From IMG/VR virus record IMGVR_UViG_3300023179_000246, positions 1-39,046 of that record: a DNA stretch of 39,046 bases; one strand, 5' to 3'. The position numbers and the translations under genes were made by a program. The stretch's first letter is position 1. Every line of letters starts with the position of its first letter. Source of the DNA: a virus. Shown here one piece after another: positions 1 to 38,367 of this stretch. The notes beneath the pieces are model-generated. The model made no database searches. It was not told the origin of the DNA and was given only the letters and a program-made list of their open reading frames with translations.

Positions 1-94
1 TCAAGGTGGCAAGGGGCGGGCATGACGCTTAGAGGCCCTAACGGCGAGGCGGCTATGCCTACCAGCGGGGGGCCACTGTTGCCTCCGCCGTCGT
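1..94. repeat. Terminal direct repeat, left copy (contig overlap)
   Basis: The first 94 bases recur at 38949-39043. The two copies differ by one G in a G-run near position 9 (this copy has one fewer). The reading frame ending at the right edge continues into the gene at 22-684 through this repeat, so the two ends most simply join into a circle or a circularly permuted molecule. The repeat is more likely an assembly overlap than a biological terminal repeat, because it sits inside a coding sequence. Confidence 0.85.
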
Positions 95-5632: not shown

Positions 5633-6054
5633 TGAGAATTAAAGCAATCCTTCAGAGACGTGGAGAGAAGTATGGGGCATGCTTTGGCGAATTGAATATC
5701 CCGCAGCTAGGAGTGCGGCTTTATACGCTAGAAGATGCATGGAATGGCAACAAGGTTGGCGCTAGCTGCATTCCAACGGGCTTATACGCGGTTGTGCCTC
5801 ATGGATGGGATAAGGCAAGCAAGGTGACCAGAAAGCGCTGCTGGCGGCTTTTGGATGTGCCAAATCGCACGGCCATTCTTATTCATGCAGGCAATACGGT
5901 CGCGGACACCGAAGGGTGCGTGCTGGTAGGGACGAAGGCGCCTGTGATTGATGATGTGAACGGCACGGTGACCTTGCCGCAAAGCAAGGTGGCCATGGAT
6001 TTGCTGCGCGCTAAGATTGGTGAGCAAGGGTTTCAGCTGGAGGTGAAGTCATGA
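5632..6054 (+). CDS. DUF5675-like protein, candidate cell-wall/lysis gene
   Basis: The sequence matches the DUF5675 pattern as I know it: LYTLEDAWNGNKVGASCIPTG, then RLLDVPNRTAILIHAGN and a DTEGCVLVG motif (residues ~80-100). Members of this family are common in phage and prophage lysis regions; their activity is not established to my knowledge. I chose ATG 5632 (140 residues) over the in-frame TTG at 5608, because neither has a Shine-Dalgarno site and the promoter just upstream would give a transcript beginning at 5632. A strong terminator follows at 6083-6109. It is the best endolysin-like candidate in the window, since no classical lysozyme, amidase or transglycosylase was seen. Confidence 0.7.
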   Translation: MRIKAILQRRGEKYGACFGELNIPQLGVRLYTLEDAWNGNKVGASCIPTGLYAVVPHGWDKASKVTRKRCWRLLDVPNRTAILIHAGNTVADTEGCVLVGTKAPVIDDVNGTVTLPQSKVAMDLLRAKIGEQGFQLEVKS

Positions 6055-6082
6055 TAACGGGTTCCTCTTGCGGAAAAGATGG

Positions 6083-6109
6083 GGCTGGCCTGTTGGCTGG
6101 TCTTTTTTT
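6083..6109 (+). terminator. Rho-independent terminator after the DUF5675-like gene
   Basis: An 8-bp stem (GGCTGGCC / GGCTGGTC with G-U pairs), a TGTT loop and seven T residues form a classical terminator. A reading frame beginning at 6079 would run through it, which argues for the later start of the next gene. Confidence 0.85.
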
Positions 6110-6132
6110 GTAACAAAAAGAAAGTGAGGATA

Positions 6133-7158
6133 ATGGGAATAACACGAGCCTTAATTGACCAGAGAATAAAATTTACAAAAGACGTTCATTTTCACTACCA
6201 CAATAGGAAGAATAGCCTTTCACGCACGGCAGAAATCGTTGGCTGCACTCCAGGCGTAGTAAGGCACTGTTTGCAGCGGATACATCGCGCTGGTGGCATT
6301 GCAGCCATGATTAAGCGGTACGAGAGGCAAAAAAGTGATCTCTATAAGAAACCCGATACAGTGTTTGACGATGAGCTGAACGAGGCCATTAGAGCGCCAG
6401 AGGGAGATGATTATGGCAGGCATTTTATTGAGATGTTGCCAGAATGCGTGTTGCTTATCCCTGACTTACAGGCGCCCTATCAGTTGCCGGATGCTTTACA
6501 GTTTTTGAAGATGGTTGCCGATAAATACAAGCCGGACGCAGTGCTATGTATTGGCGATGAGGTGGATTTTAATTTTCTATCCTCTTACGACAAAGAGCCG
6601 TTGATTGACGAGCCGAAGCGGGAGTTAGAGCAGGCGCAGGAATTTATGGGCAAGCTGTTTAAGATGTTCCCAAAAGCGCATTCGCTTACCAGCAATCATG
6701 TCCACGGCAGGTTGCACGGTGCCCGTAAACAGGCGCGGTTGCTGCCGCAAATGCTTACCAAATGGGAGCAGTTGATTGGAGCGCCTAAGACGTGGGGATG
6801 GTATGAGGAAGTGCGGATGGGCGAGGTGCTGTTTAGGCACGGTGATAAGTGGCCTACGCTGACCATGACCCACCTTGCTCGTGCTATTCCTGACAAATAT
6901 GGGTGCCCGCTTAGTGTAGTTCACGGACATGTTCACAGCAAAATAGGGGTGCAAGCGATTATGCCCTATGGCGATGATGAATATTGGGCTGCTTATACGG
7001 GTTGCTTGATGAATCCACGCAGTAGAGCAGCAGATTACTGCAAAGCGATGAACTTAAAACTTGGCACTATCGTTATTAAACATGGGGTTGTTCATAAGGT
7101 GCCTTATCGTCGTGACCCTGTAACGATGGCATGGACACGCAGGCTGGAACGTGATTGA
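6133..7158 (+). CDS. Calcineurin-like metallophosphoesterase with N-terminal HTH-like region
   Basis: The ATG at 6133 follows a GTGAGGA ribosome site; the earlier ATG at 6079 lies in the terminator. In this 341-residue product, the metallophosphoesterase motifs are D111-L-Q-A-P (the family usually has DxH, so the metal-ligand His is Gln here), GDEVD (141-145), N188-H189, H236-G-D and GHVH (265-268). Residues ~5-60 look like a helix-turn-helix (SRTAEIVGCTPGVVRHCLQR). The substrate is unknown. Phage members of this superfamily include phosphatases and nucleases. It stands between the lysis terminator and a holin-like gene. Confidence 0.8.
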   Translation: MGITRALIDQRIKFTKDVHFHYHNRKNSLSRTAEIVGCTPGVVRHCLQRIHRAGGIAAMIKRYERQKSDLYKKPDTVFDDELNEAIRAPEGDDYGRHFIEMLPECVLLIPDLQAPYQLPDALQFLKMVADKYKPDAVLCIGDEVDFNFLSSYDKEPLIDEPKRELEQAQEFMGKLFKMFPKAHSLTSNHVHGRLHGARKQARLLPQMLTKWEQLIGAPKTWGWYEEVRMGEVLFRHGDKWPTLTMTHLARAIPDKYGCPLSVVHGHVHSKIGVQAIMPYGDDEYWAAYTGCLMNPRSRAADYCKAMNLKLGTIVIKHGVVHKVPYRRDPVTMAWTRRLERD

Positions 7159-7678: not shown

Positions 7679-9157
7679 ATGGTGGACATGGCAAGGCTGC
7701 TGCTATTCCCGTTGGTTGTGCTTTGGATGGCGGTCTGGTGGACGTTAGGCACACTATGGTGGCTGTTAGGGCTGCCGTTGAGGGGTAATAAAGCCGCGGA
7801 TAGTCATGGCACCGCGCAATGGGCAACTTGGAAGGAGTTACGCAAGGCGGGGCACTTCGAGCGCAATGGATGGTTGGTGGGCTTTTTGCCGTATCATAAG
7901 TGGCTGCCTAGCTTGGGGCGGAAGGTTTATACCACGCCGCAGGCAAGCGTGATTTGTATTGCACCAAAAGGTCAAGGGAAGACGCAAAGTCTTATATCGG
8001 CTATTAGAGACTTTGCCCAACGGCCTGCGGGAAGACAACCTGATTTGCTGGTAAGCGACCCTGCCAATGATATAGAACCCGCAACCCGTGAATACTGCGC
8101 TGAGCGCGGATACAAGGTAATTATTTTGGACGTGCGCGACCCTGCGCGTGGGCATCGCTACAACGTGCTGTCCATTCTTCAGCGGCACAGTATGAGCTTT
8201 GAGGCCGATGCTGACCAGATAGCAAGTCTGATTATGCCTGACGATGCTGGCAAGGGTGAACCGCATTTTCAAGAGATAGGCAGGATGCTCTTGGTGGGTG
8301 CCATCATGCATGTGCTGACGACGGGCGGCATGACGTTATTTGATGTGGTGCAGGCGTTGACCGTTGACACGGATGCGCGGGAAAAGTTGTTTGAGGGAAT
8401 GAAAACAAGCCCTAACCCTCGCACAAGGCAGGCGGTGAACGCTTTTTTGGCGGCTGGGGAGCGCGAACGTGGTAGTTTTATGACGACCATGAGCCGCAAG
8501 CTATCGGTATGGCTGCGGCGCTCATTTAAGGAAATGACGGCCCCGGACGGGATAGATTGGAAGTGGGAGGACGTGTTTGTAAGCCCTGACCCCATTATTT
8601 GCTACGTTATAACGGGCCTTCAGCCAGAGGAGGGGGCTTTTGCGCGGTTGGTATTTGGCAATGCCATCAATACGCGGCGGCGCATGTTTAACCAGATGCA
8701 TCGGGGAACAAACTTCCCAAAAGAGTTTTGCTTGCTTGCTGATGAAATGCAGGTGATGGGGCATTGCAACGCGATTGTGGACGCTAATAATGAATTGAGG
8801 AAGGCGCGCACTAGCACCTTTACCACGTTTTTAAGCTGGTCTTTATTATTTCAGATTTACCCGCAGGCGAAAACCCTGATTGCCAATAGCAACCTACTTG
8901 TATTTGGCGGTAGCAACGACATGGAGGCTTATAGCGAAAGTAGCAGTATTATCGGTGATATAACGGTGGAGAGTGCCAGCCGCAGCGAGAATGATAGGGG
9001 AGAAAGTGAAAGCCGCAGCGAGCAAGGGCGACGGCTGGCTAAGGCCGATGAAATCAGGCGTTTGAAATTTGGAGAGGTATTATACTTATCAGGGCGTTTG
9101 GATAGTAGATTAAAAACCGCTTGGAAGATTGGTAAGGGTGGGATAGAGTTTAGGTAG
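7679..9157 (+). CDS. Type IV coupling protein (VirD4/TraG family)
   Basis: This 492-residue protein has hydrophobic helices at residues ~4-35, then a VirD4/TraG-like ATPase domain. Walker A is APKGQGKT (95-102), followed by LLVSDPANDIE (123-133), which matches the family's DpKGE region. The Walker-B-like LLADEMQVMG is at 352-361, and the C-terminal TraG portion includes FLSWSLLFQIYPQAK. In conjugation this inner-membrane ATPase delivers the relaxase-DNA complex to a type IV secretion channel. No VirB/Trb channel genes are present. It faces the relaxase gene at 9276-10697 tail to tail. At 492 residues it is somewhat shorter than many VirD4 proteins, yet both key motifs are intact. Confidence 0.88.
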   Translation: MVDMARLLLFPLVVLWMAVWWTLGTLWWLLGLPLRGNKAADSHGTAQWATWKELRKAGHFERNGWLVGFLPYHKWLPSLGRKVYTTPQASVICIAPKGQGKTQSLISAIRDFAQRPAGRQPDLLVSDPANDIEPATREYCAERGYKVIILDVRDPARGHRYNVLSILQRHSMSFEADADQIASLIMPDDAGKGEPHFQEIGRMLLVGAIMHVLTTGGMTLFDVVQALTVDTDAREKLFEGMKTSPNPRTRQAVNAFLAAGERERGSFMTTMSRKLSVWLRRSFKEMTAPDGIDWKWEDVFVSPDPIICYVITGLQPEEGAFARLVFGNAINTRRRMFNQMHRGTNFPKEFCLLADEMQVMGHCNAIVDANNELRKARTSTFTTFLSWSLLFQIYPQAKTLIANSNLLVFGGSNDMEAYSESSSIIGDITVESASRSENDRGESESRSEQGRRLAKADEIRRLKFGEVLYLSGRLDSRLKTAWKIGKGGIEFR

Positions 9158-9185
9158 GTGGACGGCTCCTGATGTTGCACCAACC

Positions 9186-9250
9186 CCCGCACCTAACGGC
9201 CGTGGATGCGGTGCTAGGTATTTTTCACAATACTATGGTGCGGGTCTTTT
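9186..9250 (+). terminator. Candidate terminator between convergent coupling-protein and relaxase genes
   Basis: CCCGCACC (9186-9193) and GGTGCGGG (9237-9244) form an 8-bp stem followed by TCTTTTT. A competing shorter stem (ACCTA / TAGGT, followed by ATTTTT) lies inside. A small GTGAC-GTTTT-GTCAC hairpin follows at 9257-9271, just before the relaxase stop. Confidence 0.5.
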
Positions 9251-9275
9251 TAGTTTGTGACGTTTTGTCACGACC

Positions 9276-10697
9276 TCATTTCTGCCACCCCAAATCCTTC
9301 TGCATATCCTCCCATTCCTTCACTTTCTCGGTTTCTCCCTTCAATACTAGCAAGTCGCGGTATTCCTCGCCGTTAATCGAGGCTTCCTTATAGGCTTCTT
9401 CAATCTGGGCAACCGTTATCTCGCGGGCATTGATAAAAGCCTGACGGTCAAACAACTGCATAGCACCTTGCATTTCTTGCTCGGTGCCATAGATAGCCAC
9501 AATTTCCTTAAAGCGGTTTGCGGCTATTTCATACTCAGTTGCAGCCTGTTTGGCTCCGTCAACCACGCTTTTTGCCATTTGATAGGCTTCAGTAACATCG
9601 CGCTGTTTCATATCTCGTGCAAACACAGCAGAGTTCAACTCGTGCTGGGCCTGTTCCGCCTGTTTGCGGGTTGGTGACTTGTAGGAAAGGCCCCATATAT
9701 TGATTTCAAAACCCTTTAAACCACTATCGGTTGTATAGGTTTTCATCCGCTGCTCGGCCATAGCTTGCCGCATCGTAAGCGGGATAAGCTCGTTTTTCTC
9801 CATGTCGTTTGCGCGAGTGACCGCCTTTTCAGAAGCGGACTTGGCTGCCTCGGCTGAGGCTTTTGCTGCGTCTCGGCGTGCGATGGCTTGTTCTATGCGG
9901 CGCTTCTCCTTGAGGGCATCTACGGCGGTGCGCGCGTAGATGGCGCCAGAGGGTGCTACCAGTTCCATATCTTCCTCGGAGTGTCGGCTATCAGGAAGCT
10001 CTATTGTAAGCGTCCGTTCGGCTTCACGTGGAACATCTACGTTGCTTAGCGGTGCATTAGGTTCTACATCGTCAAGACCATTTTCGTGGGGCCGCGAAAA
10101 TGGTTCTAGCGGTATTCCGTGCTGCTCTGCAAGGCGTTCCATTGCTTTTTTGCGGGCGTCTGCAAAGCTGATGGTAGCTTCCTGCCCAGCCTCAAGCATG
10201 ACTTGGTTGTGCACTTCCTCCCACACCAGCTTGAGCTTGGCGGTGCTGCCCCGCTTGGTTGTGCCAAACACGCGCGGCCCAGTGACTTCGCGGTGGATTT
10301 TCTCGGCATCAACAAAAATAAATTGAGCATGGGGGTTTTCGTTACTTTTCTTTCCTTCATGGATAGCGAAAAAATAACTCGCTTTTCCTTCGCTAATGCG
10401 GTGTCCAAAGCGGCGGCATGCTTTGGCCCAATCGTCTAAGGTAAGTTCAACGGGCAGCGCGATGATAAACTTGTCGCACACCCTGCCGTTGGCGCGTAGC
10501 TCCTCGGTGCGGCGGTTGAGGAAGGCTTGCATGTTGCGCTTTGATTTGGAGGCGCCATCGGTTATTGTGAAACGCTCGGAATACGAATAGATGCACTCCG
10601 GTTTGCGGAGCAGATAGCTAAGGTGGTTTGCGGCGGCATCTGGCCTTGTTAGCTTTGGCTTGCTAAGGTAGTCATGTTGGAAGTAGGGGATAGCCAT
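9276..10697 (-). CDS. Relaxase, MobA/MobL (MOBQ-like), with coiled-coil C-terminus
   Basis: This 473-residue protein has a MobA/MobL-type N-terminal domain. AANHLSYLLRKPE (22-34) resembles the family's opening motif. DKFIIALPVELTLDDW (75-90) and H113...NPHAQFIFVD (121-130) match the strand carrying the metal-binding histidines, and STAKLKLVWEEVHNQVMLEAG fits the region after it. The usual third histidine of the HxH pair is Gln125. Residues ~250-410 are charged and likely coiled coil. A relaxase nicks oriT and carries the strand through the coupling protein. The probable catalytic Tyr is in the YSYSERF segment (37-43). A hairpin-rich intergenic region upstream is a candidate oriT. Confidence 0.85.
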   Translation of the reverse strand: MAIPYFQHDYLSKPKLTRPDAAANHLSYLLRKPECIYSYSERFTITDGASKSKRNMQAFLNRRTEELRANGRVCDKFIIALPVELTLDDWAKACRRFGHRISEGKASYFFAIHEGKKSNENPHAQFIFVDAEKIHREVTGPRVFGTTKRGSTAKLKLVWEEVHNQVMLEAGQEATISFADARKKAMERLAEQHGIPLEPFSRPHENGLDDVEPNAPLSNVDVPREAERTLTIELPDSRHSEEDMELVAPSGAIYARTAVDALKEKRRIEQAIARRDAAKASAEAAKSASEKAVTRANDMEKNELIPLTMRQAMAEQRMKTYTTDSGLKGFEINIWGLSYKSPTRKQAEQAQHELNSAVFARDMKQRDVTEAYQMAKSVVDGAKQAATEYEIAANRFKEIVAIYGTEQEMQGAMQLFDRQAFINAREITVAQIEEAYKEASINGEEYRDLLVLKGETEKVKEWEDMQKDLGWQK

Positions 10698-10862
10698 GGT
10701 GGAGTGTAGCGCCTTCTGAAGAGACGCACACGGAGCCTTCGCGGAGCGAAGGCATATTGTGCATCTACCTGGGCGCTAGACTTCCTGCTTCGTGGCCTTC
10801 GTGGTATCTGGGGTATGGGTGGATAACGTGGTGTTGTTGCCACACTTGTTTTGGAGGGTGCC
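10698..10862. other. Candidate oriT / regulatory region upstream of the relaxase
   Basis: This gap between divergent genes holds a nested structure. A perfect hairpin GCCTTCGC-gga-GCGAAGGC (10735-10753) lies between an outer 7-bp repeat TAGCGCC (10717-10723) and GGCGCTA (10772-10778). A relaxase needs a nearby hairpin-flanked nick site, and this is the most structured gap next to the relaxase gene. The nick position is not identifiable by eye. It could also carry the relaxase promoter. Confidence 0.45.
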
Positions 10863-11330: not shown

Positions 11331-11606
11331 GCCTCTGAAAATCGCCTGAATGAAGGGTTGGGCCATATTTGCGGCAACCTTGCCTTTTTGCATGGTTACG
11401 GCGCGTTTTGCACCAGCGGCAGCCGCTTGAGCAACCGTTGTATCTTGTAGGCCGCCGTTTGCTTGGATAAGCTGTAAATCGGCTTTATCAAACTGGTCAG
11501 CATTAAGCTGTCTCATTTTTGCTTGCCATGTGGCGTATCGGTCTGTGTTGTTGTCAGCTACACGGTTGACGTAGGCGTCGGCTAGTTCCTCGCGGGTGAT
11601 GGGCAT
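11313..11606 (-). CDS. Hypothetical protein (97 aa)
   Basis: ATG 11606 follows an AGGAGA site, so the longer open frame to 11678 is unlikely. The product is Ala/Gln-rich and probably helical (QAKMRQLNADQFDKADLQL), ending in a glycine/arginine tail (FRGLGGRR). No family was recognised. It diverges from the membrane protein at 11620 across only 13 bases and converges with the gene at 10863-11330. Confidence 0.5.
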   Translation of the reverse strand: MPITREELADAYVNRVADNNTDRYATWQAKMRQLNADQFDKADLQLIQANGGLQDTTVAQAAAAGAKRAVTMQKGKVAANMAQPFIQAIFRGLGGRR

Positions 11607-11619
11607 GGGACTTTCTCCT

Positions 11620-11925
11620 ATGAAGCTGAAGGGGTGGGAGCTGCTAGTTGGTTGGCTAGCTGTGGTGTATATAGCCAACGTAGTTAGTGTGCAATACGGC
11701 GGGTATCCGTTCCTCTACTGTTGGGGCAGGGCATGGGCTGTGCCTCTTTATGAGCCGTGGGGCGCCTTTGCCAACCTTGCTGCGCTCTGCTACTTCGGGT
11801 TTGCTACTTGGCGGAGGGGAGCGGCAGGTGCACTTGCGGGGCTAGTGGTGTGCTTGCTGGTGTGGGGCCTCCCCTCCACCCTTGAAGCCTTAACGCGCCT
11901 TGGAGGCAGTTGTGGCGGGAAGTGA
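11620..11925 (+). CDS. Small membrane protein (101 aa)
   Basis: The product has three hydrophobic stretches: residues ~6-25 (LLVGWLAVVYIANVVSVQY), ~47-65 (AFANLAALCYFGFATW) and ~70-88 (AGALAGLVVCLLVWGL). ATG 11620 gives a natural N-terminus (MKLKGW), but no Shine-Dalgarno site is visible. It lies upstream of the excisionase-like gene, overlapping it by 14 bases, so it probably belongs to the integration operon. Possible roles such as superinfection exclusion cannot be shown from the sequence. Confidence 0.5.
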   Translation: MKLKGWELLVGWLAVVYIANVVSVQYGGYPFLYCWGRAWAVPLYEPWGAFANLAALCYFGFATWRRGAAGALAGLVVCLLVWGLPSTLEALTRLGGSCGGK

Positions 11926-12301
11926 TGATGAACACCAACGCTTGCGTGAAGGTGTCGCCGGTGAGTATAAGATAGCCCTCTACCGCCAGTATGGAGAGGC
12001 CGAGGCCGCGCACTTCTTGCAGGTTGACTTGTCCACCCTAAAACGGTGGCGGCGCGAAGGCAAGGTGCCTTACATCAACATGGCGGAGCGCAAAGTTCGC
12101 TATCTTGGCGTCCACATCGTAGATTTGCTTATCAAGGGTTCAGCATGGGCCGATACACCAAACGCGAATGCCAATACGGGGAATACTGGGTCGGGCAGCG
12201 GGCAGGCTCCCCAGCATACTACCGCTGCTGGATGGAAGGCCGAACCCTCCGCCGCGCTACGCTTGGCACAACAGACTTTGAAGAAGCCAAGCAGCGGTTA
12301 G
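11912..12301 (+). CDS. MerR-type helix-turn-helix protein, candidate excisionase
   Basis: GTG 11912 has GGAGG five bases upstream, better than TTG 11900. Residues ~25-72 hold an HTH_17/excisionase-like domain: IALYRQYGEAEAAHFLQVDL, TLKRWRREGKVPYI, then KVRYLGVHIVDLL. The rest is a low-complexity Thr/Asn/Gly/Ser/Ala tail that is read out of frame over the integrase N-terminus (157-bp overlap, 12145-12301). The overlap may mean this tail is incidental. Proteins of this kind direct integrase toward excision or repress the int operon. The integrase follows on the same transcript. Confidence 0.65.
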   Translation: MAGSDDEHQRLREGVAGEYKIALYRQYGEAEAAHFLQVDLSTLKRWRREGKVPYINMAERKVRYLGVHIVDLLIKGSAWADTPNANANTGNTGSGSGQAPQHTTAAGWKAEPSAALRLAQQTLKKPSSG

Positions 12302-13236
12302 AGGAGTGGTTTATTGCCAACCGGCGTGTTGAGAACGAAACGGCAACGGATGCGGTATTGGCTGACGTGCTGCGTCGGTATTGGGAAGGGCACGCAAAGA
12401 ACGTGGCATCCGCCCCCACCATCAAAGGCCAGCTGCGCTATTGGTTGGAATTCCATGGTGCTGCCAGCGTCAAGGATGCCTGCCACCATGATAGGCTGGC
12501 GCAATTCATAACCGCACTTAAAGACCGTGGGCTTGCCCCCAGCACCGTCAACCACACTCTCATGGCGGGTAAGGCTGCACTGCGGATGGCTTGGAAGCGG
12601 GGCGAGCTGGTGAGCGTGCCGCACATCCCCATGGTGCCAGTCGGTGAGCAAGAGCCGATGGGCAGGCCGCTGACCGTGGAGGAAGTCCGTAGGTTGTTGC
12701 GCGAGTGTGAGGCAACCCCTCACCTGTGGCGGCTGTGCGTGTGGCTGATAGCTACGGCGGCGCGTCCAGCGGCAATCTTGGAGCTTGATTGGGCGCAGGT
12801 GCGGCATGACGAGGGGCTGGTGTATCTTAACCCCATAGGAAGGGCGCAGAACAAGAAACGGCGCCCTGTGGTTCGCTTGCCTACGCAGCTATCAAAAAAC
12901 AGCGGTAGCGGCCATGTGGTGGCTTGGCGTGGTAAGCCTGTCGGTTCTGGCATAACGGCGTGGCGGAAGGCGCGGGAGAGGGCGGGGCTTGGGCAGGATG
13001 TTACGCTGTACAGCTTTCGACACACGATGGGGCGGTGGATGCGGGCGCGGGGTGTGCCGGAGGAACAGATAAAGATGCAGCTCGGCCATGCAACCAGCGG
13101 GGAGACGTGGCGCTACATTGGGTTTGCGCCAAATTATCTTGACAAGGCTTGCGCGGCGATTGAAGCCTACCTTGACTTGGTGCTAGACGATTGCGATTCA
13201 GCAGGTGCACTGACAATCTCGGAGTTGCGGGTGTAG
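12145..13236 (+). CDS. int: Tyrosine recombinase / phage integrase
   Basis: ATG 12145 follows AAGGG by several bases; the longer frame from 12046 would place 33 extra residues over the HTH gene. In the 363-residue product, the arm/core-binding part spans ~1-165. Catalytic motifs are R207 (IATAARPAAILELDW), the KKRR region (237-240), YSFRHTMGRW with R292-H293 (the first His of HxxR is Tyr289, a substitution seen in other integrases), LGH (313-315) and nucleophile Y324 (TWRYIGF). It catalyses site-specific recombination between attP and a host tRNA-Gly gene. Its last codons and stop overlap a tRNA-Gly half at 13227. The gene is more GC-rich than the virion genes. Confidence 0.92.
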   Translation: MGRYTKRECQYGEYWVGQRAGSPAYYRCWMEGRTLRRATLGTTDFEEAKQRLEEWFIANRRVENETATDAVLADVLRRYWEGHAKNVASAPTIKGQLRYWLEFHGAASVKDACHHDRLAQFITALKDRGLAPSTVNHTLMAGKAALRMAWKRGELVSVPHIPMVPVGEQEPMGRPLTVEEVRRLLRECEATPHLWRLCVWLIATAARPAAILELDWAQVRHDEGLVYLNPIGRAQNKKRRPVVRLPTQLSKNSGSGHVVAWRGKPVGSGITAWRKARERAGLGQDVTLYSFRHTMGRWMRARGVPEEQIKMQLGHATSGETWRYIGFAPNYLDKACAAIEAYLDLVLDDCDSAGALTISELRV

Positions 13237-13266
13237 TTCAGTGGTAGAACGTCAGCTTCCCAAGCT
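13227..13266 (+). other. attP-like core: 5' half of tRNA-Gly(CCC)
   Basis: Forty bases match the 5' part of a bacterial tRNA-Gly: acceptor strand GCGGGTG, D-arm GTTC-AGTGGTA-GAAC, anticodon stem TCAGC and loop TTCCCAA with anticodon CCC. The match stops after the first three bases of the returning stem (GCT), then CG follows instead of GA. No T-arm or 3' end is present. The fragment overlaps the last codons and the TAG stop of the integrase, as expected for the phage attachment site. Integration would join this 5' half to the host 3' half and recreate an intact tRNA. Confidence 0.8.
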
Positions 13267-13505: not shown

Positions 13506-13856
13506 ATGGCAAAAAAACCGCAAACCGATGTGCTGGATGAGGCGTTGGATGTGTTTAAGCTGCTGACGTTTGACGACCAAGCGCAATTTATAAAGCAACT
13601 TGAGGAGGTACATTCAACCGCTAAGGCGTCTAAGGTTGCAGAGCTACAAGCGGCACTTGCGGCGCTTGGTGTGTATGGCGGCGGAGATAGGCCACGGCGT
13701 CAAAGGCAGACGTCTGGCGGTGAGCGTAGCAAAGCAGCGGTGAAATACCGCGACCCAAAGACGGGTGATGAGTGGAGTGGTCGTGGTCGCCCTGCGGCAT
13801 GGCTTCAAAGGCATTTAGATGTTGGTAAGAAGAAAGAAGATTTCTTGGTAGGCTAA
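13506..13856 (+). CDS. H-NS family nucleoid protein, copy 1
   Basis: This 116-residue protein has the H-NS layout: a helical N-terminal oligomerisation part (residues ~8-60), a basic linker (DRPRRQRQTSGG) and a C-terminal DNA-binding core (VKYRDPKTGDEWSGRGRPAAWL, ~79-100) with the conserved RGR hook. H-NS proteins bind the minor groove of AT-rich DNA and silence genes. AAGGAGAG precedes the ATG. The stop abuts the stop of the minus-strand methyltransferase-like gene with no gap. A second H-NS-like gene lies at 18536-18808. Confidence 0.88.
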   Translation: MAKKPQTDVLDEALDVFKLLTFDDQAQFIKQLEEVHSTAKASKVAELQAALAALGVYGGGDRPRRQRQTSGGERSKAAVKYRDPKTGDEWSGRGRPAAWLQRHLDVGKKKEDFLVG

Positions 13857-26839: not shown

Positions 26840-27307
26840 ATGGCACGCCCGATTGTTTGGACCGACGATAAGAAAGAAGAAGCTGTTAAGCATATTTTGT
26901 TGCAACTTGCGACGTCGGAGCTTGGGCTTGAACACATTTGCAACGCCGAGGAATGGCTGCCAAGTGCGAGCACATTTCATGAGTGGCGGGCAGGCGATAA
27001 AGTATTAGCGGAGAGATACGCCCGCGCGCGCGAAGAACAAGCGGTGTATATGGCTGATACAGCGGGGGTTATTGGCACGCAGTTGGTTGCTAAAAATCCG
27101 TCGTATAGCGTAGACCCTCAAGCCTATCGGGCTTATTTGGACGGTGTGAAGTGGCGAGCAAGTAAGCTGGCGCCTAAGACTTTCGGGGAAAAGCAGCAGG
27201 TGGAGCATACTGGAAAGGATGGCGGCCCGATTAAAACCGAGGCAGTGTATAAGGAATTGTCTGTAGACGAATTAAAGAAGCTCGCAGCTCTTGGAACTGA
27301 AAGCTGA
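26840..27307 (+). CDS. terS: Terminase small subunit
   Basis: The 155-residue product has an N-terminal helix-turn-helix region (EHICNAEEWLPSASTFHEWR) and central helices (KVLAERYARAREEQAVYMAD), followed by KTFGEKQQVEHTG, typical of phage small terminases. It recognises DNA for packaging. It overlaps the large subunit by 17 bases. Confidence 0.85.
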   Translation: MARPIVWTDDKKEEAVKHILLQLATSELGLEHICNAEEWLPSASTFHEWRAGDKVLAERYARAREEQAVYMADTAGVIGTQLVAKNPSYSVDPQAYRAYLDGVKWRASKLAPKTFGEKQQVEHTGKDGGPIKTEAVYKELSVDELKKLAALGTES

Positions 27308-28664
27308 ACAGCAGGCGCTGATAAGGTATAGGGCGCGTGAGGAGTTAAAGCAGCGTGCCGAGTGGTATGAGCCGTATGATAAGCAGCGTCAGTTTCATGC
27401 GCTTGGCGCCGTCAAACGTGAGCGGTGCTTGTCTGCTGGCAACCAGCTTGGGAAGACGCTTGCGGGGGCCGCAGAGTGCGCTTTTCATTTAACTGGCGTG
27501 TATCCTGCGTGGTGGCAGGGAAGGCGCTGGAACAGGCCTGTGATGGGCTGGTGTGGTGGTGTTACATCCGAGTCAACACGGGATGGCCCGCAGACTAAGC
27601 TAATCGGAACGATGGGAGAAAAAGGCTCTGGCGTGTTGCCGGAGTCTTCTATTGTTGAAGTAGTGAAGGCGACTCACGGTATTCGTGATGCGGCTGACTT
27701 CATTCGTGTTCGCCATGTATCTGGCGGCGAATCCATCCTAAATTTCAAGAACTATGCTCAAGGCCGCGAGAAGTGGCAGGCGGCATCGGTGGACTTTGTG
27801 TGGGAAGATGAGGAACCACCAGCCGAAATACATTCCGAGGCGTTAAGTCGAACCAACGCGACGGGCGGGATGGTATTTCTTACGTTTACGCCGTTGAAAG
27901 GTATGACCCAGCTTGTCTATGACTTTTGGAAGAACCCGACGCCTGATAGAGCGTTGGTTACAATGGGTTTGGTCGATGCCAAGCATATATCACCAGAACG
28001 GCGCGAGCAGATTATAGCGTCTTACAGGCCTCACGAAAGGGAAGCGCGAACGAATGGAGTGCCATCGGTAGGTAGTGGGTTGGTTTACCCCGTGGATATA
28101 GCTAAGCTGTTGGTGGAACCGTGCGAGATAAAAGACTTCTGGTTTCGCTGGTATGCGATGGACTTTGGCTGGCACAATACAGCCGCTTTGTTTTTTGCGC
28201 ACGATAGAGATAACGATACGCTGTATGTAAACGCAGAATACAAACAGGGAGAAAAGACGCTGGAAAGCCATGCAGTAAGTTTGCATGGTCTTGGTGCCAA
28301 ATGGATGCGTGGCGTGTGTGACCCTGCTGGCAATCAAAAGAACCAGCAAGACGGCGAGACGTTTATTAACCGCGCTCGTAAGGCAGGGTTACAGATTCAA
28401 CCAGCTGATAACAGCGTAGAAAGCGGCATAGATGCTGTATTGAGTCGAATGTATAGTGGTAAGCTAAAAGTGTTTAATACATGTCAGCAATGGCAGCAGG
28501 AGTTTCATTTATATGCGAGGGACGAAAGGGGAATGATAAAGAAAGAGAACGACCATTTGATGGACTGCATGAGGTATGGCGTAGTCAGTGGGCATAGCGT
28601 GGGAGCAAAGCGCGGCGCAAATAATGTGCCGAGCAATTTGGTCTGGCCGAAAGGGTTTGCATGA
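27291..28664 (+). CDS. terL: Terminase large subunit
   Basis: The 457-residue product carries the ATPase centre: Walker A SAGNQLGKT (48-56) and Walker B FVWEDEE (169-175), with the coupling region TFTPLKG. The nuclease domain has D291 (AMDFGWHN), D344 (CDPAGNQ) and D421/D425 (NDHLMDCMRYG). It pumps DNA into the procapsid. The start is TTG 27291, the only sensible one near the N-terminus. The family is the Terminase_6 type as I recognise it. Confidence 0.93.
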   Translation: MELKAEQQALIRYRAREELKQRAEWYEPYDKQRQFHALGAVKRERCLSAGNQLGKTLAGAAECAFHLTGVYPAWWQGRRWNRPVMGWCGGVTSESTRDGPQTKLIGTMGEKGSGVLPESSIVEVVKATHGIRDAADFIRVRHVSGGESILNFKNYAQGREKWQAASVDFVWEDEEPPAEIHSEALSRTNATGGMVFLTFTPLKGMTQLVYDFWKNPTPDRALVTMGLVDAKHISPERREQIIASYRPHEREARTNGVPSVGSGLVYPVDIAKLLVEPCEIKDFWFRWYAMDFGWHNTAALFFAHDRDNDTLYVNAEYKQGEKTLESHAVSLHGLGAKWMRGVCDPAGNQKNQQDGETFINRARKAGLQIQPADNSVESGIDAVLSRMYSGKLKVFNTCQQWQQEFHLYARDERGMIKKENDHLMDCMRYGVVSGHSVGAKRGANNVPSNLVWPKGFA

Positions 28665-28744
28665 TGGCTGAACCCGCAAGGTTATGGCAGTTAGTGTTGT
28701 TGTTTTGTTTTATTGCCTATATAGCCATATTCTGGCTGGCATAA
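28664..28744 (+). CDS. Small membrane peptide (26 aa)
   Basis: ATG 28664 overlaps the TerL stop (TGATG). The peptide begins MAEPARLWQLVLLLF and has a single hydrophobic stretch to its end (IAYIAIFWLA). The gene fits the gap before the portal; the function is unknown. Confidence 0.45.
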   Translation: MAEPARLWQLVLLFCFIAYIAIFWLA

Positions 28745-28785
28745 TTTCACTTGCTAAGTAAGCATTTACTTAATATCTTTATTGC

Positions 28786-30864
28786 ATGCCAAGTTTTACA
28801 GGACGCCCCCTTACGCAAGACGAGATTGTTCAAACCTGTTTATCTGAATTGTCTCAAGCCCGCACAATGTCGGGCGAAATAGCAAAAGACCGCGAAGATG
28901 CGCTGAAGGCTTATGAGCAGCAGCGTTACGGTGACGAAATGGAGGGCCAAAGCCAATATGTCGCGTCTGATGTGCGGGATACGGTGGAATCAATCCTTCC
29001 CGATATCGTTGAGATTTTTGTAGCTGGCGATCATCCGGTAGAATTTGAACCCCAGAGTGATAAAGATGTAGAACAGGCAGAGCTTGAGACGGATGCCGTG
29101 CGCCATGTATTTTTGCAGCAAAACGACGGGTTTATGATTACCTATTCGGCGGTAAAAGACGCGATGCTGTCCAAGAATGCGTATTGCTATGTTGGTTGGG
29201 AGACGGATGTAAAATACAGCCGCGAGGAATATAGGGGCTTGAGTGAGGAGCAAATGGTGCTGCTGTCTCAAGACCCAAAAATAGAGATACAGGCGGTGAG
29301 TAGCGAGGACGTAGCAACTGTCTTGCCGGATGGCATGCAGGGTGTTGTCAAGCAATATGATGTGCTGGTGAGAAAGAGCCGCGAAGTCGGGCAAGTTTGT
29401 GTTTATCCATTGCCGCCGGAGCGTGTGCACATAAACCGCCACCACAGTAGTGTGGACTTACAGAGCGCCCGTTGTGTGATTTACGAAGAACTCCTGATGG
29501 CAGGCGATTTAGTAGAGCAGGGCTACCCAATAGAGTTGGTAGAGCAGATACCAAACTATCAATGGTATAGCCGGAGCGAAGAAGTAACCCGCTGGCGTAA
29601 AGAAGGGGCGACGGGCTTTCGCGACGATGCGGGCACCGACAGCAGCCGCAGGATTGTGCAAGTGCTGAACTGCTACGTTTGTATAGATGCTGACGGCGAT
29701 GGGGTGCCAGAGTTGCGATTGGTGCGAATTGGTGGCGAGAACAGTCGGCTGGTACTGGAAAATAAGGAAATAGACCGCGTCCCGATAGTGAGCGGCGGAA
29801 TGATAATTAATACGCACAAGCACTTTGGGGTTGCTATCGCAGATATACTCCAAGATATTCAACGCATTCGCACTACGGTTATGCGACAGGCGTTAAACAA
29901 TATTTATTTCAACCAGTTTCCTGTGACTTTTGTTGAAGATGCGGCGGCTAATGAAAACACCTTTCAAGATTTGTTAAGTCGTCGGCCTGCTGGGTTTGTA
30001 AGAGTTAATAATCTAATGGGCGTGCGGACGGAACCGCCTGTGGCCTTGATTGACCAGAGCATCAACATGCTTGCGGCGCTTGATACAATAAAGGAAGACC
30101 GTGTTGGCGTTAGTCGGGAGACGCAGGGATTAGACCCCAAGAGCATTAGTGATGCTACTAATCTTGTTGGTATGACCGTGCTTAGCAGAAGCCAATCGCG
30201 CATTAAGATGATGGCGCGGGTATTTGCCGAGACATTTTTCAAAAACCTAATGCTGGCAATCCATGAATTGCTGATGAAGAACGGAAGCGGCTTCCCAATT
30301 CGTCGGCAGCAGGCGTTCGTTACTGTAAACCCGCGTGAATGGGTAGAGCGTGAACGTATGGTGGTGAAAGTCGGCACTGGTTATAGCAATCAAATGGAGA
30401 AGATTGGCAGAGCGGAAGCTACGCTGGCTAAACAAGAGAAATTGGCAATGTCTGGGGCTATGGGTAGACTCATAACAGAACAAAACATTTATAGCGGTCT
30501 TGCAGAGTGGAGCAAGGCAAGCGGCGTGCCCGTGAGCAAATTCTTCTCGAATCCGGACAAGATGCCTCCTGCACCAGAACCACAGCCGGACGCACAGACA
30601 ATGGCGGTAATGGTCGCGCAAAAGGAAGCTGAAGTGAAGGCGATGAAAACAGCTGCGGATACGAAGCTAGAGATACAGCAGCACAACGACAAAGTAGCGC
30701 TAGAACGTGAACGTATTGCAAGTAACCACTATCTGAAAGCGAAGGAATTAGAGCTGAAATATAAAGTGACTAATGTGCAAGAAGAACCAAAGGAAAGTGA
30801 GTTGGATGAACCGATGGAAGCAAATGCTGGGCGAGTTGACGAAGCCGTGGAATCCGCCAACTAA
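28786..30864 (+). CDS. Portal protein
   Basis: The 692-residue product resembles podovirus P22/SU10-type portals. The N-terminus (LSQARTMSGEIAKDREDALK then YEQQRYGDEMEG) and VASDVRDTVESILPDIVEIF match the clip/stem entrance pattern of that group. The stretch AIADILQDIQRIRTTVMRQALNNIYFNQ is the stem/crown helix, and the C-terminal ~110 residues are Gln/Lys-rich and helical. It forms the dodecameric DNA channel at the head vertex. A GCATGCC start at 28786 has no strong Shine-Dalgarno site. Confidence 0.9.
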   Translation: MPSFTGRPLTQDEIVQTCLSELSQARTMSGEIAKDREDALKAYEQQRYGDEMEGQSQYVASDVRDTVESILPDIVEIFVAGDHPVEFEPQSDKDVEQAELETDAVRHVFLQQNDGFMITYSAVKDAMLSKNAYCYVGWETDVKYSREEYRGLSEEQMVLLSQDPKIEIQAVSSEDVATVLPDGMQGVVKQYDVLVRKSREVGQVCVYPLPPERVHINRHHSSVDLQSARCVIYEELLMAGDLVEQGYPIELVEQIPNYQWYSRSEEVTRWRKEGATGFRDDAGTDSSRRIVQVLNCYVCIDADGDGVPELRLVRIGGENSRLVLENKEIDRVPIVSGGMIINTHKHFGVAIADILQDIQRIRTTVMRQALNNIYFNQFPVTFVEDAAANENTFQDLLSRRPAGFVRVNNLMGVRTEPPVALIDQSINMLAALDTIKEDRVGVSRETQGLDPKSISDATNLVGMTVLSRSQSRIKMMARVFAETFFKNLMLAIHELLMKNGSGFPIRRQQAFVTVNPREWVERERMVVKVGTGYSNQMEKIGRAEATLAKQEKLAMSGAMGRLITEQNIYSGLAEWSKASGVPVSKFFSNPDKMPPAPEPQPDAQTMAVMVAQKEAEVKAMKTAADTKLEIQQHNDKVALERERIASNHYLKAKELELKYKVTNVQEEPKESELDEPMEANAGRVDEAVESAN

Positions 30865-31159
30865 ACAGGAACCGCTTTTATCTGACCAGAAGATAAAACG
30901 CGGAGATAACGCGCGCGCACTATTGAACAACGAATTGTGGAAGGAGGCCATTCGGCAAGTAGAATACAACGCTTTGGTTAAATGGCGTGGAACGGCCCCT
31001 GAAGAAGTCGAAAGACGCGAGACTGCGTGGCTTTACCTTAATGCTCTTGACGAAGTAAATAAACACATACATACTTTCCTTACTGACTCCATTGTTGAAG
31101 CTGAAAAGCTAAAGCGGGAGGCCGAGGCTAAAAAACGCAACGGAAGAATTTATGAATGA
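30806..31159 (+). CDS. Hypothetical head-region protein (117 aa)
   Basis: ATG 30806 is the first reasonable start and overlaps the portal end by 59 bases. The product is helical with a Trp-rich N-terminus (MNRWKQMLGELTKPWNPP) and a charged C-terminus. Its stop overlaps the scaffold start. It may be a head accessory protein. Confidence 0.6.
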   Translation: MNRWKQMLGELTKPWNPPTKQEPLLSDQKIKRGDNARALLNNELWKEAIRQVEYNALVKWRGTAPEEVERRETAWLYLNALDEVNKHIHTFLTDSIVEAEKLKREAEAKKRNGRIYE

Positions 31160-32133
31160 CAGATAACGCAGAACCAAACGTGATGGCGGATATTGCCCGC
31201 ATAGCAAATGGTTTAGTAAATGGTAAGCAGGAAGCAGCTAAAACCCCTGCTACGACAGACAAAGACGATATTACTGGTGAAAACCCAACCGCACCAGCAG
31301 TTGATGAAACTGTGCCAGAGGGGCAGGAAGGCACTCCCGAAGGGGAGCAAGCCGAAGACGGGGCAGATGAGGCAGAGCAAGCAACGGAGCCTACCTACAC
31401 CGCTGTTATAGGCGGCAAGTCGGAAGTGCTACCCGTAAGCAAGCTAATCGCACTCGCGCAACAAGGCGCTGACTATACGCAGAAGACGCAGGCGCTGGCT
31501 TCTGAGAGGAAGACGGTAGAAGCGGCTAAAGCGGAGGTTGGCAACCTGCAAAAGCAATATGCTGAACGGCTGACAATGCTGGAAGCTGCACTTAAACCGC
31601 AGCTACCTACGCCCGAAGCTATGAACGCTGCCTTGCAAGCTGGTCGCAACACAGAATACCTGCAAATGCAAAACCAGCTTATGCAATACAATGCGGTTAT
31701 AGCGGAGCGGCAACAGGTAGAAGCGGCGAAGGCGCAGGAACAGCAGCTTAGATTGCAGGCGACAATGGCTGAAGAAAGCAGGCTACTTTATGAAAAGTTG
31801 CCTGAATTCAAGGAAGAAGCTGCACGCAAACGCTTGGGCGAATACCTTGTAAAAGAGGGTATTCCACAGGAAGAAGTGGACAGCATTTATCAACACAACC
31901 TGATTGTGCTGGCTGAGAAAGCCCGCCGCTGGGATGAGTTGCAAACCAAAAAGCCAGAGTTGCAAAAGCGCGTTGAGAATCTGCCAAAACTGGCTAAATC
32001 AACTGCGCGGCCATCTAAGGGTGATGCTAACAGGCATGCGCTTGAGCAGGGTATGGAAGCTCTTAAAGAACACGGCAAGTTTATATCTCCTGAACACAGA
32101 CAGGCGGTACTAGGCAAGTTCTTGGGGCTATAA
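31156..32133 (+). CDS. Scaffolding protein
   Basis: The 325-residue product has an acidic Pro/Glu/Thr-rich N-terminal third (TVPEGQEGTPEGEQAEDGAD), followed by long helical stretches (residues ~105-250) and a C-terminal basic helical domain. This is typical of phage scaffold proteins. It lies directly before the major capsid gene, which supports the role. Confidence 0.75.
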   Translation: MTDNAEPNVMADIARIANGLVNGKQEAAKTPATTDKDDITGENPTAPAVDETVPEGQEGTPEGEQAEDGADEAEQATEPTYTAVIGGKSEVLPVSKLIALAQQGADYTQKTQALASERKTVEAAKAEVGNLQKQYAERLTMLEAALKPQLPTPEAMNAALQAGRNTEYLQMQNQLMQYNAVIAERQQVEAAKAQEQQLRLQATMAEESRLLYEKLPEFKEEAARKRLGEYLVKEGIPQEEVDSIYQHNLIVLAEKARRWDELQTKKPELQKRVENLPKLAKSTARPSKGDANRHALEQGMEALKEHGKFISPEHRQAVLGKFLGL

Positions 32134-32158
32134 ATCAACCCAATAGAATGTAACGAAA

Positions 32159-33106
32159 ATGCCTTATCCAACCAACACCTACTCCCGCTACGCGGTTGTA
32201 GGCAACCGGGAAGACTTGGAAAATACGATTTATAACGTATCTCCATTTGAAACCCCTGTCATGAACGCCATCGGGCGGACTGACGTAACCAACACACTGC
32301 ACGAATGGCAGACTGATACCATCCGTGCGCCGCGCACTAACGCGCAAATCGAAGGCGATACTTTTACGAACGTCGCCCGCGTGCCAACCACTCGTCTGTC
32401 TAACTGGACTCAAATCTTTACGGACACGATTGGAGTCACTGGCACACAACTGGCGATGAAACCCGCTGGTCGTGCTGATGAAATGACCTACCAGCTGTCG
32501 CTGGCAATGAAAGCGTTGAAGACCGATGTTGAAACCGCAATCCTTGCTAACGTAGGCGGTGGTAACGGCACTGAAAATAGCACTGGCCGGACAATGCGTG
32601 GTTTGCCGAGCTGGCTTGCGAGCAACGTATCTGCGGCTGCTAACGGCGCTAACGGTGCTTCTGGCAGTGCCCGCACTGATGGCGACCAACGTGCGTTGAC
32701 TGAAGACCTCCTTAAAAACGTGCTGCGCTCTGTTTACGATAACAGCGGTGAAGTTCCAAGCATGATTGTGGCTGGTTCTTTCAACCGTAGTGTAATCAGT
32801 AGCACCTTTACAGGCGGCAACAACCGCATGCAAAGCATGGAAAAGGCCAAGCTGGACACCACTATCAAAATTTACGAAGGTGATTTTGGTGTGTATCAAA
32901 TCGTGCCTGACCGCTTTGTGCGGACACGCGACCTGTTTGTGCTGAACCCAGACTACTTGTCTTTGGGTTATCTCCGCACATGGCGCGTGGAAGACTTGGC
33001 TAAAACTTCTGATACTGACCAGAAGGCTATCATTGCCGAGTGCACGCTGATTGTCCGCAACGAAAGAGCGCATGGTGCGGTTTTTGACCTTACCACTAGC
33101 GCTTAA
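32159..33106 (+). CDS. Major capsid protein (DUF5309-like, HK97-type fold)
   Basis: The 315-residue product fits the DUF5309/SU10-type capsid pattern: NREDLENTIYNVSPFETPVM near residue 20, DTIGVTGTQLAMKPAGRADE, TMRGLPSWL, DGDQRALTEDLLKNVLRSVY, and VPDRFVRTRDLFVLNPDYLS near the end. It assembles the icosahedral shell. It follows the scaffold gene by 25 bases. Confidence 0.88.
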   Translation: MPYPTNTYSRYAVVGNREDLENTIYNVSPFETPVMNAIGRTDVTNTLHEWQTDTIRAPRTNAQIEGDTFTNVARVPTTRLSNWTQIFTDTIGVTGTQLAMKPAGRADEMTYQLSLAMKALKTDVETAILANVGGGNGTENSTGRTMRGLPSWLASNVSAAANGANGASGSARTDGDQRALTEDLLKNVLRSVYDNSGEVPSMIVAGSFNRSVISSTFTGGNNRMQSMEKAKLDTTIKIYEGDFGVYQIVPDRFVRTRDLFVLNPDYLSLGYLRTWRVEDLAKTSDTDQKAIIAECTLIVRNERAHGAVFDLTTSA

Positions 33107-33135
33107 TCAGAAACAGGAAATGAAAGGGTAAGACT

Positions 33136-34008
33136 ATGAAGGCAACTAAACTCCTTCTGGCCCTCGGCCTGATGATGATTAGCGCGGTTGGTCATGCACA
33201 GTCGTTTGTTTGGAACACCAATACTGGTGATTCAACGGGCGGCTTGGCAGCTCAAAGCCAAACCGATAACTCTCAACCGTTTGTGATTGACCGCCAAGGT
33301 TTTGTGCGGATTGCCCCATTGTTCATTGTTCAAGATGATTTTGGGTCTTCTCAAATCACAAGCGCGACATGGCTGGGCTATGGCGGGACTTCTGGCGGGG
33401 CTACCCCCACCATTATCACGTCGCAGTCGGGCGTAGTGTCCATGACGAGCGGCAACAGCCAGGCCAGCGCAGCAGCGGGTAACAGTCAGATAAACGCGGC
33501 TGTGCCTATGTTCCGCGCGGCTAATGGCGGGTTGTCGTTTGAAACTCGGCTGATGGCTGCGACTAGCGATAGTCAAGTTATCTTCGCTGGGTTAATGGAT
33601 GCCACCACCTCTACAATCCCAATGCAAATCAGTGCGACAAGCCTTACTTCGCGCACATTTACAGCGGGAACGGCTAACTTTGTAGGGTTGGTGTTTGATA
33701 ACCGTAGTTCCATTAGCCAAACCGTCGCTCGTAGCGGCTGGGTTGGAATGGGGAACCGTAACGGTGTAAGCAGCAGCGCTGTGTTTACCGGCGTGCCTGT
33801 GACTGCGAATGCATGGGTGACTCTGCGGGTCAACGTGGCGCCAACTGGCCGTGCTGACTACTTCATCAATGGACGACTGGTCGGCAATACTGCTGCGGGC
33901 ACGGTGAACAGTAGCACGCTGCTGGTTCCTGCGGTGGGTGTGATGAACACTAACAGCACGACTCGTAACGTGTTGGTTGACTATATCCAAGCCTCTCAAC
34001 GGCGCTAG
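33136..34008 (+). CDS. Signal-peptide ConA/LamG-like protein next to the capsid gene
   Basis: The 290-residue product begins with a signal peptide (K2, K5, hydrophobic core, then GHA before Gln). The mature part resembles a jellyroll of ConA/LamG type: FETRLMAATSDSQVIFAGLM, NFVGLVFDNRSS, AWVTLRVNVAPTGRADYFIN, GRLVGNTAAG. A capsid decoration or glycan-binding protein is expected at this position, but an exported precursor would not normally reach a cytoplasmic procapsid. GAAAGGG at 33122-33128 precedes the ATG by seven bases. A terminator-like hairpin follows. Confidence 0.75.
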   Translation: MKATKLLLALGLMMISAVGHAQSFVWNTNTGDSTGGLAAQSQTDNSQPFVIDRQGFVRIAPLFIVQDDFGSSQITSATWLGYGGTSGGATPTIITSQSGVVSMTSGNSQASAAAGNSQINAAVPMFRAANGGLSFETRLMAATSDSQVIFAGLMDATTSTIPMQISATSLTSRTFTAGTANFVGLVFDNRSSISQTVARSGWVGMGNRNGVSSSAVFTGVPVTANAWVTLRVNVAPTGRADYFINGRLVGNTAAGTVNSSTLLVPAVGVMNTNSTTRNVLVDYIQASQRR

Positions 34009-34014
34009 GATAAC

Positions 34015-34044
34015 GGGGAGGGGTAACCCTCCCCCTTAATTTTT
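34015..34044 (+). terminator. Intrinsic terminator / attenuator inside the late operon
   Basis: GGGGAGGG (34015-34022) pairs with CCCTCCCC (34027-34034) around GTAA, followed by CTTAATTTTT. The next gene begins at 34045 immediately after the T-run and has no visible promoter of its own, so partial read-through is likely. Confidence 0.8.
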
Positions 34045-34416
34045 ATGAATGATAGTAAAATGAGTGATGTTTACAAAATAGTTCCGAAACATAGTGAGTT
34101 TGAAACAGCGGTGTCGGCTACCCCTACGGCACAAAAAAGCCTGCATTTTGAAGATTTGGGCCGAGGCAAGGTTGGAGTGCGCGAAGTGCTTCGAGAGAAC
34201 GAGCGGCCAGTGTTGGAGTTGAACGCCGTAAAACGTAACCACGAACAAAGGCACGGCGTGATGGGTAAGCAGATAGCCGATATTACCCATAGCGCAGCGG
34301 CCCGCTGGAAGGATTTATATGGGTTTGATGTCTATACGGCAAATCTAAATGACCCAGTGCAAAAGCGGATGCTTGACAAGTTGCTGGCATTAAACCCAGA
34401 GTATAAAACAACGTAA
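34045..34416 (+). CDS. Hypothetical protein (123 aa)
   Basis: The ATG sits right after the T-run of the terminator. An in-frame ATG at 34060 is an alternative. The product is charged (RGKVGVREVLRENERPVLEL, then NAVKRNHEQRHGVMGKQIAD). No family was recognised; position suggests a head or neck accessory protein. Confidence 0.6.
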   Translation: MNDSKMSDVYKIVPKHSEFETAVSATPTAQKSLHFEDLGRGKVGVREVLRENERPVLELNAVKRNHEQRHGVMGKQIADITHSAAARWKDLYGFDVYTANLNDPVQKRMLDKLLALNPEYKTT

Positions 34417-34426
34417 GGAGGAAAAT

Positions 34427-34618
34427 ATGGAACAGTTTTTGAAATGCAAGGTATGGGATTTGCCGGGTGAATATAAGGATAAAACGCTTGAGGAGCTATT
34501 TGCGTTGCTGTGCGGTAATATTGAAGCTGGCGGCGTTGAGGAAGCCCAAGAGGAAGCGCCTAAACGTGTTCGGAAGAAGAGGGCTGATGTAGCGGAAGAA
34601 GTAGAAGTTGAGTCTTGA
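34427..34618 (+). CDS. Hypothetical acidic/basic protein (63 aa)
   Basis: AAGGAGG precedes the ATG. The N-terminal half is compact (MEQFLKCKVWDLPGEYKDKT), then an acidic-to-basic tail follows (EEAPKRVRKKRADVAEE). It overlaps the next gene by 11 bases. Confidence 0.6.
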   Translation: MEQFLKCKVWDLPGEYKDKTLEELFALLCGNIEAGGVEEAQEEAPKRVRKKRADVAEEVEVES

Positions 34619-35243
34619 TACATACGCCAATCTTAAAACTGAAATAGCCGATAAGCTGGCGAGGTCGGATATAACGGCCTCGTCGTCTATTATTGATACA
34701 GCGATTGATTTGGTGGAATCTGAAGCTAATACTGACTTGAGAATGTATGAACAGTTGGTTGCTGCTAATCTTACAACCGCGGCGGGAAGTGAAACAATCG
34801 CGTTGCCAAGCGATTTCCTTCAGTTTTACAGCCTGTATCTAGGTGACGACCCCTCACCGTTAAAATTCGATACAGAGGCTAACATACGCGCTCGGTTCCC
34901 ACGGTCACAGCTAGGTCGCCCGCGGGTGTTTCAGTTGATGCCAGCCAATTTACTGGGGTTGGCACCTGTTCCTGACGCGGTTTACACGGCGAAGTTGCAA
35001 TATTATGCAAAAATACCAGCGCTTTCAGATAACCAGACCACAAACTGGCTGCTGGCGGCATTTCCGGGGTATTATTACTACGGCGCTTTAAGCCATTTGG
35101 CTACTTACATAGTTGACGAACAAACCAAGCAAATGGTGGCTGGGGAGTTAGCCTTGATTAAAGCGAATATGAAGACGGTGGACTCTAAACGGAGAACGGC
35201 TGGGGCCGGAATGATGGCTCATGTAGTAGGAATGACGCCGTGA
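34608..35243 (+). CDS. Head-tail adaptor protein
   Basis: The TTG start (TTGAGTCTTGAT) overlaps the previous gene. The 211-residue product begins MSLDTYANLKTEIADKLARS and continues helical, with LPSDFLQFYSLYL and YYAKIPALSDNQTTNWLLAA. This pattern is well known among podovirus adaptor/connector proteins such as gp4/gp13-type. It would join the portal to the tail hub. Confidence 0.75.
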   Translation: MSLDTYANLKTEIADKLARSDITASSSIIDTAIDLVESEANTDLRMYEQLVAANLTTAAGSETIALPSDFLQFYSLYLGDDPSPLKFDTEANIRARFPRSQLGRPRVFQLMPANLLGLAPVPDAVYTAKLQYYAKIPALSDNQTTNWLLAAFPGYYYYGALSHLATYIVDEQTKQMVAGELALIKANMKTVDSKRRTAGAGMMAHVVGMTP

Positions 35244-35244
35244 C

Positions 35245-37524: not shown

Positions 37525-37525
37525 C

Positions 37526-38359: not shown

Positions 38360-38367
38360 GGGGAAGT

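Follow-up and report, generated by a model that had tools for sequence, protein, structure and literature searches.

A divergent MOBQ-like relaxase, a VirD4-type coupling protein and a predicted oriT in the lysogeny region of an integrating tailed phage

Several small alphaproteobacterial MOBQ plasmids, e.g. Neorhizobium pNCHU2750e, Agrobacterium pusense pC and Xanthobacter dioxanivorans unnamed4, encode a coupling protein (T4CP) of their own. The viral contig analysed here (IMGVR_UViG_3300023179_000246; its full 39,046 bp are referred to as the window) resembles these plasmids in having a MobA/MobL relaxase, 28-34% identical to alphaproteobacterial plasmid relaxases over the first ~200 residues, an adjoining VirD4-type T4CP and a hairpin with a nic region just upstream. 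It departs from them in that the plasmids carry RepA and often ParA, divergent T4CP and relaxase genes, an intact HHH metal site and the nic sequence ATAAGTGCG, and have no virion genes. With MobA of RSF1010/R1162 the window shares the relaxase-domain fold (2ns6) and the succession of a hairpin and then a nic region, but its third metal ligand is Gln, its nic core is different, it has a T4CP gene and it is the genome of a phage. Integrative mobilisable elements (IMEs) likewise combine an integrase and a tRNA att site with a relaxase, an oriT and sometimes a coupling protein, and have no channel, whereas the window also has a complete set of genes for packaging and for the virion. P1-like phage-plasmids with mob or oriT have been reported (PMC10879196), these also being phage genomes with conjugation functions; unlike them, the phage of the window integrates, its module includes a T4CP and is old enough to occur in two diverged phages. 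Hitcher elements that bring along a coupling protein of their own have also been reviewed (PMC11389934). In a partial search of the literature, with most subscription papers outside it, there was no report of a tailed phage that integrates and has an oriT, a relaxase and a coupling protein.

The ends of the window (1-94 and 38949-39043) overlap over 95 bp at 99% identity with one gap. Therefore, the genome, with a unique length of about 38.95 kb, is closed and circular or else terminally redundant, i.e. near-circular, though its class in IMG/VR is linear. One ORF, which has an endolysin-type domain, appears to run across this contig junction. PHROG matches identified packaging and virion genes (TerS, TerL, portal phrog_1216, scaffold, coat, structural proteins and an ejection protein) on the plus strand at 26840-39046 and, following the end overlap, on into 1-684, as well as an Erf-like annealing protein, an O-like initiator, DnaB and an integrase. 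The matched portal, coat, scaffold and ejection PHROGs, which we take to be P22-type, together with the integrase, make this on gene content the genome of a P22-like temperate podovirus. At best, 45% identity to the TerL of Rhizobium phages was found for its own TerL. The first-pass annotation had placed a coupling protein and a relaxase within a phage genome, and these surroundings, from terminase to integrase, are indeed present, while neither the T4CP nor the relaxase of the window has a PHROG match.

The gene for the tyrosine integrase (12145-13236, +), 47% identical to that of the second phage described below, overlaps at its stop codon a 40-nt candidate attP (13227-13266, +). Apart from one mismatch to the bacterial genes, this sequence matches genes for tRNA-Gly(CCC) over their 5' half, and ARAGORN predicted tRNA-Gly(ccc) at the genomic matches of attP that were tested. 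No exact attB match was present in 385 alphaproteobacteria and seven one-mismatch matches were found in 399 Pseudomonadota. A small putative membrane protein, common to both phages (34% identity), is encoded between the predicted oriT and the integrase gene (11596-11925, +), followed by an excisionase- or regulator-like HTH_17 protein (11900-12301, +) with 46% identity to its counterpart in the second phage. On the other side, 3' of attP, 13506-13856 encodes an H-NS-type DNA-binding protein, and similar small proteins occur in the second phage. The integrase, the attP in tRNA-Gly and the lambda-type replication genes (O-like initiator and DnaB) indicate that the element is a prophage that integrates rather than a phage-plasmid, and the first-pass proposal of a dual-route phage-plasmid is not supported in its phage-plasmid part; among the annotated ORFs of the window, the small ones having been scanned in part, there are no plasmid rep or par genes. 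The same proposal had stated that no secretion channel is encoded, in agreement with the absence of VirB4 (PF03135) from the window and from the second phage in a mating-channel scan made with this one family. Thus, any conjugation would need a helper, and the element combines, as IMEs do, an integrase and a candidate att site in tRNA-Gly(CCC) with the lack of a mating channel of its own.

VirD4 proteins usually possess two N-terminal membrane helices. The 492-residue product of 7679-9157 (+) is assigned to the VirD4/TrwB-type T4CPs by Pfam (T4SS-DNA_transf PF02534, 7e-32; TraG-D_C PF12696, 2e-13; also PF10412) and by an AlphaFold model (pLDDT 82) that matches Cag-beta (8dol, 4e-18) and TrwB (1e9s, 6e-13) with probability 1.0. 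Motifs and fold define a RecA-like ATPase with Walker A (APKGQGKT, residues 95-102) and Walker B (CLLADE, from residue 351) plus an all-alpha domain, so that the earlier description of a coupling-protein ATPase with both motifs intact holds. Of the N-terminal membrane helices described along with it, the model retains a single hydrophobic one (residues 2-29). The T4CP gene is convergent with that of the relaxase (9276-10697, -), and the tail-to-tail arrangement of two real genes is likewise as first described.

The relaxase has 473 residues and a helical C-terminal half for which no relatives were found outside the two phages. It matches Pfam MobA_MobL (PF03389) at 2.5e-6, above the cut-off, and NCBIfam MobQ at 1.6e-7, yet far below the equivalog cut-off of that model. 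The best PDB match of the predicted relaxase domain is MobA of R1162 (2ns6, E 8e-8, probability 1.0), and 4ht4 was also retrieved; structure prediction, which had been suggested as a check on both proteins, thus gives an HUH nuclease fold for this one and a TrwB/Cag-beta fold for the T4CP. HUH enzymes are generally known to initiate replication in some phages and plasmids, and the relaxase could by this token initiate rolling-circle style replication of phage or prophage DNA, while the T4CP would move DNA within the cell and not out of it. We consider such a role highly improbable, since the phage already has genes for an O-like initiator and a DnaB helicase and since coupling proteins are membrane parts of type IV secretion systems (T4SS), a membrane helix being predicted in the T4CP of the window as well.

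In alignments Tyr28 of the window relaxase corresponds to the invariant, catalytic motif I Tyr of its relatives, and it is followed by His113, His123 and Gln125. Instead of three metal-binding His (a first His and then NPHxH) the window therefore presents H-H-Q, its third ligand being changed from His to Gln, whereas the order in the second phage is Tyr, Gln, His, His, with the first ligand changed. A Tyr/His/His/His site is found in 50/50 readable non-phage relatives, two further ones being truncated and outside this count. With Gln125 in place of His the defining feature of canonical MOBQ enzymes is missing, and the protein is, as judged from its residues, a divergent MOBQ-like relaxase. The relaxases of the two phages fall into a single clade of the tree (support 99/94), so that the His-to-Gln changes probably arose separately inside it; the window branch is very long (3.31). 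In the Rep protein of duck circovirus Mn2+ is bound by Glu44, His52 and Gln54 (PMC9973303). By analogy with this working Gln ligand, the loss of one His need not abolish relaxase activity.

The MOBQ oriT consensus is NWACCNNTAAGTGCGCCCTYNN (PMC3832669), and the relatives of the phage relaxases agree with it: in most of the plasmid and chromosomal ones GGGTTTGC-nnn-GCAAACCC lies just 5' of the relaxase gene, with ATAAGTGCG on the opposite strand, the relaxase usually adjoins a T4CP, and the oriT precedes it at a short distance, in most cases no more than about 60 nt. A comparable site, newly recognised here inside the 10698-10862 stretch that had been singled out earlier, is predicted beside the relaxase gene of the window, comprising a hairpin and a nic-like region at 10726-10769. 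It consists of a two-tier stem (10726-10762, +), in which GCACA (10726-10730) and TGTGC (10758-10762) form the outer tier and GCCTTCGC-GGA-GCGAAGGC (10735-10753) the inner hairpin, and of the predicted nic region ATATTGTGCATCTACC (10754-10769, +), which follows the hairpin directly 3' on the same strand and was compared with plasmid oriTs, e.g. ATAAGTGCGCTCTACC. The inner hairpin is the sole perfect one with an arm of at least 8 and a loop of 3 in the whole window. In the second phage GGGTTGC-GGA-GCAACCC is followed by ATATGGCCCACTAG; the hairpins sit at -56 and -46 from the relaxase gene in the two phages, which have in common the GGA loop and ATAT after the hairpin, and first-order shuffles of the window sequence give an expectation of about 5e-5 hairpins with ATA per 30-nt site. 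The arms in the window are unlike those of the plasmids, yet they still pair, and the arm changes are compensated in both phages. In 26/28 oriTs the 5' flank can pair with the nic strand to give an outer stem of at least 4 pairs, G-T included, and no shuffle reaches the mean. Both phages form this stem using different bases, and the exact 5-bp version of the window requires a 4-nt 5' spacer that is absent from the other oriTs. The nic core of the window, ATATTGTGC, has diverged from ATAAGTGCG of the plasmids.

The altered metal site and the diverged nic core leave room for an interfering or regulatory role. It could be speculated that the relaxase binds oriT-like hairpins and nicks them poorly while the T4CP occupies the T4SS of the host, so that competing plasmids could be neither transferred nor taken in (fertility inhibition). 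Metal triads altered in both phages next to intact ATPase motifs would suit this role; furthermore, coupling proteins are the targets of fertility inhibition by PifC and Osa, according to the title of PMC5696584, and mobilisable elements can change the coupling of their helper (PMC11389934). Nonetheless, a pure inhibitor would have no need of the oriT hairpin preserved with compensation beside its own gene, and a nic region unlike that of the plasmids would probably imply poor recognition of their oriTs, so that we regard interference as unlikely.

Scanning 2.9 million viral contigs with alignments retrieved one further carrier of the pair, the 40,805-bp provirus IMGVR_UViG_3300003215_000090, the contig scans being pattern-based, so that they miss distant relatives, and the carriers found amounting to two phages. 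This provirus encodes TerL (48% identity), an O-like initiator, the T4CP (+), the relaxase (-), a membrane ORF, an HTH protein and an integrase. From T4CP to integrase the block has the same order and orientation in both phages, with full-length frames and 29-47% identity. A search for phage relatives with the same pair had been suggested as a safeguard against a chimeric assembly, which can be dismissed together with chance, since the block recurs in an independent contig and the ends of the window overlap each other. The portal of the second phage belongs to phrog_156, unlike phrog_1216 of the window. On gene content the two phages have TerL and the lysogeny-plus-mobilisation block in common but not their virion genes, as after a mosaic exchange of the head module. 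The 3' end of the integrase gene of the second phage overlaps a tRNA-Thr-like sequence at which the contig stops, as would be expected of a trimmed provirus. The two phages hence appear to use different att tRNA genes, tRNA-Gly CCC and a tRNA-Thr-like one, with integrases that are 47% identical. Directly behind the T4CP of the second phage lies an ArdC anti-restriction gene (5847-6794), and ArdC relatives also occur near several chromosomal relatives of the relaxase.

Single-sequence searches of viral and genome collections returned no close relatives, and among annotated phages (INPHARED) there was no match to the relaxase and neither protein was matched at useful similarity. None of 45 records of phages related by capsid protein (40-48%), many of them fragments, contained a T4CP. 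Integrase relatives were found in 5/385 alphaproteobacterial genomes, and the pair was absent from the five 20-kb stretches taken from four of those genomes. Both genes occur together in a single phage record, that of Synechococcus phage Ssp-JY41 (PP438431.1), which was set aside because it looks like a plasmid; although deposited as a complete phage, it is annotated with RepA, ParA and a Txe toxin, has genes resembling those for a relaxase and a T4CP, and lacks any named virion gene. The canonical oriT sequence AAACCCATAAGTGCGC was matched in four viral contigs, and three of these were discarded, the match lying within one shared coding sequence without a hairpin. The 14.9-kb phage contig IMGVR_UViG_2799112273_000001 has a full canonical MOBQ oriT, CACGGGTTTCGCAGAAACCCATAAGTGCGCCCT, at about 1040-1095; no relaxase was found in it, and it is perhaps a phage mobilised in trans.

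A further possibility raised by the long relaxase branch, the diverged nic region and the one missing His of either phage is that the module is decaying cargo, acquired from a plasmid or an IME and losing its activity, the relaxase persisting for some time as an autorepressor that binds oriT. The frames, however, are fully open in both phages, between which more than half of the residues differ, a distance across which neutral loss should leave stops; the Tyr, two ligands and the Walker motifs are kept and the oriT arms are compensated, all of which makes decay quite an unlikely account.

We favour instead, with moderate confidence, an integrating tailed phage with a full MOBQ-type module (oriT, relaxase and T4CP) in its lysogeny region, mobilisable in the manner of an IME via a helper type IV system. 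A preserved and compensated oriT beside a relaxase and a T4CP is what transfer needs, both proteins fall into mobilisation families by profile and by fold, and their order is kept in two distant phages; ArdC in the second phage, found near several such modules, adds to this. The mobilisation proposed in the first-pass annotation has thus gained from the phage relative, the HUH fold and the oriT-like site, and has lost some ground to Gln as third metal ligand and to a nic core off the consensus. Also to be set against it are the change of one metal ligand in each phage relaxase, as compared with 50/50 HHH relatives, the long relaxase branch, the outer-stem spacer, the convergent rather than divergent layout and the finding of only two such phages. 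In the working we propose, the prophage, whose integrase and attP are present, would excise from tRNA-Gly, and the relaxase would bind the oriT stem at 10726-10762 and nick the plus strand in the nic region. The T4CP of the phage would then dock the relaxase-DNA complex to the type IV channel of a resident conjugative plasmid or ICE. As judged from the orientation of the oriT, the strand would exit integrase-end first and relaxase-end last, and it would recircularise and be integrated by the same integrase. Whether the phage lineage keeps the full module in the long term, spreading both as virions and as conjugal single strands by means of relaxases in which the metal site has been refashioned and with which the nic sequence has co-evolved, we see as evenly balanced.

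Phages and mobilisable elements are now classed apart by their mode of movement. For a conserved phage that integrates and carries an oriT, a relaxase and a T4CP of its own, conjugation could be a way around the barriers set by phage receptors, and the prophage could be handed on by lysogens without lysis. The locus makes testable both the use of the two routes by one element and the working of an HUH relaxase with a Gln metal ligand.
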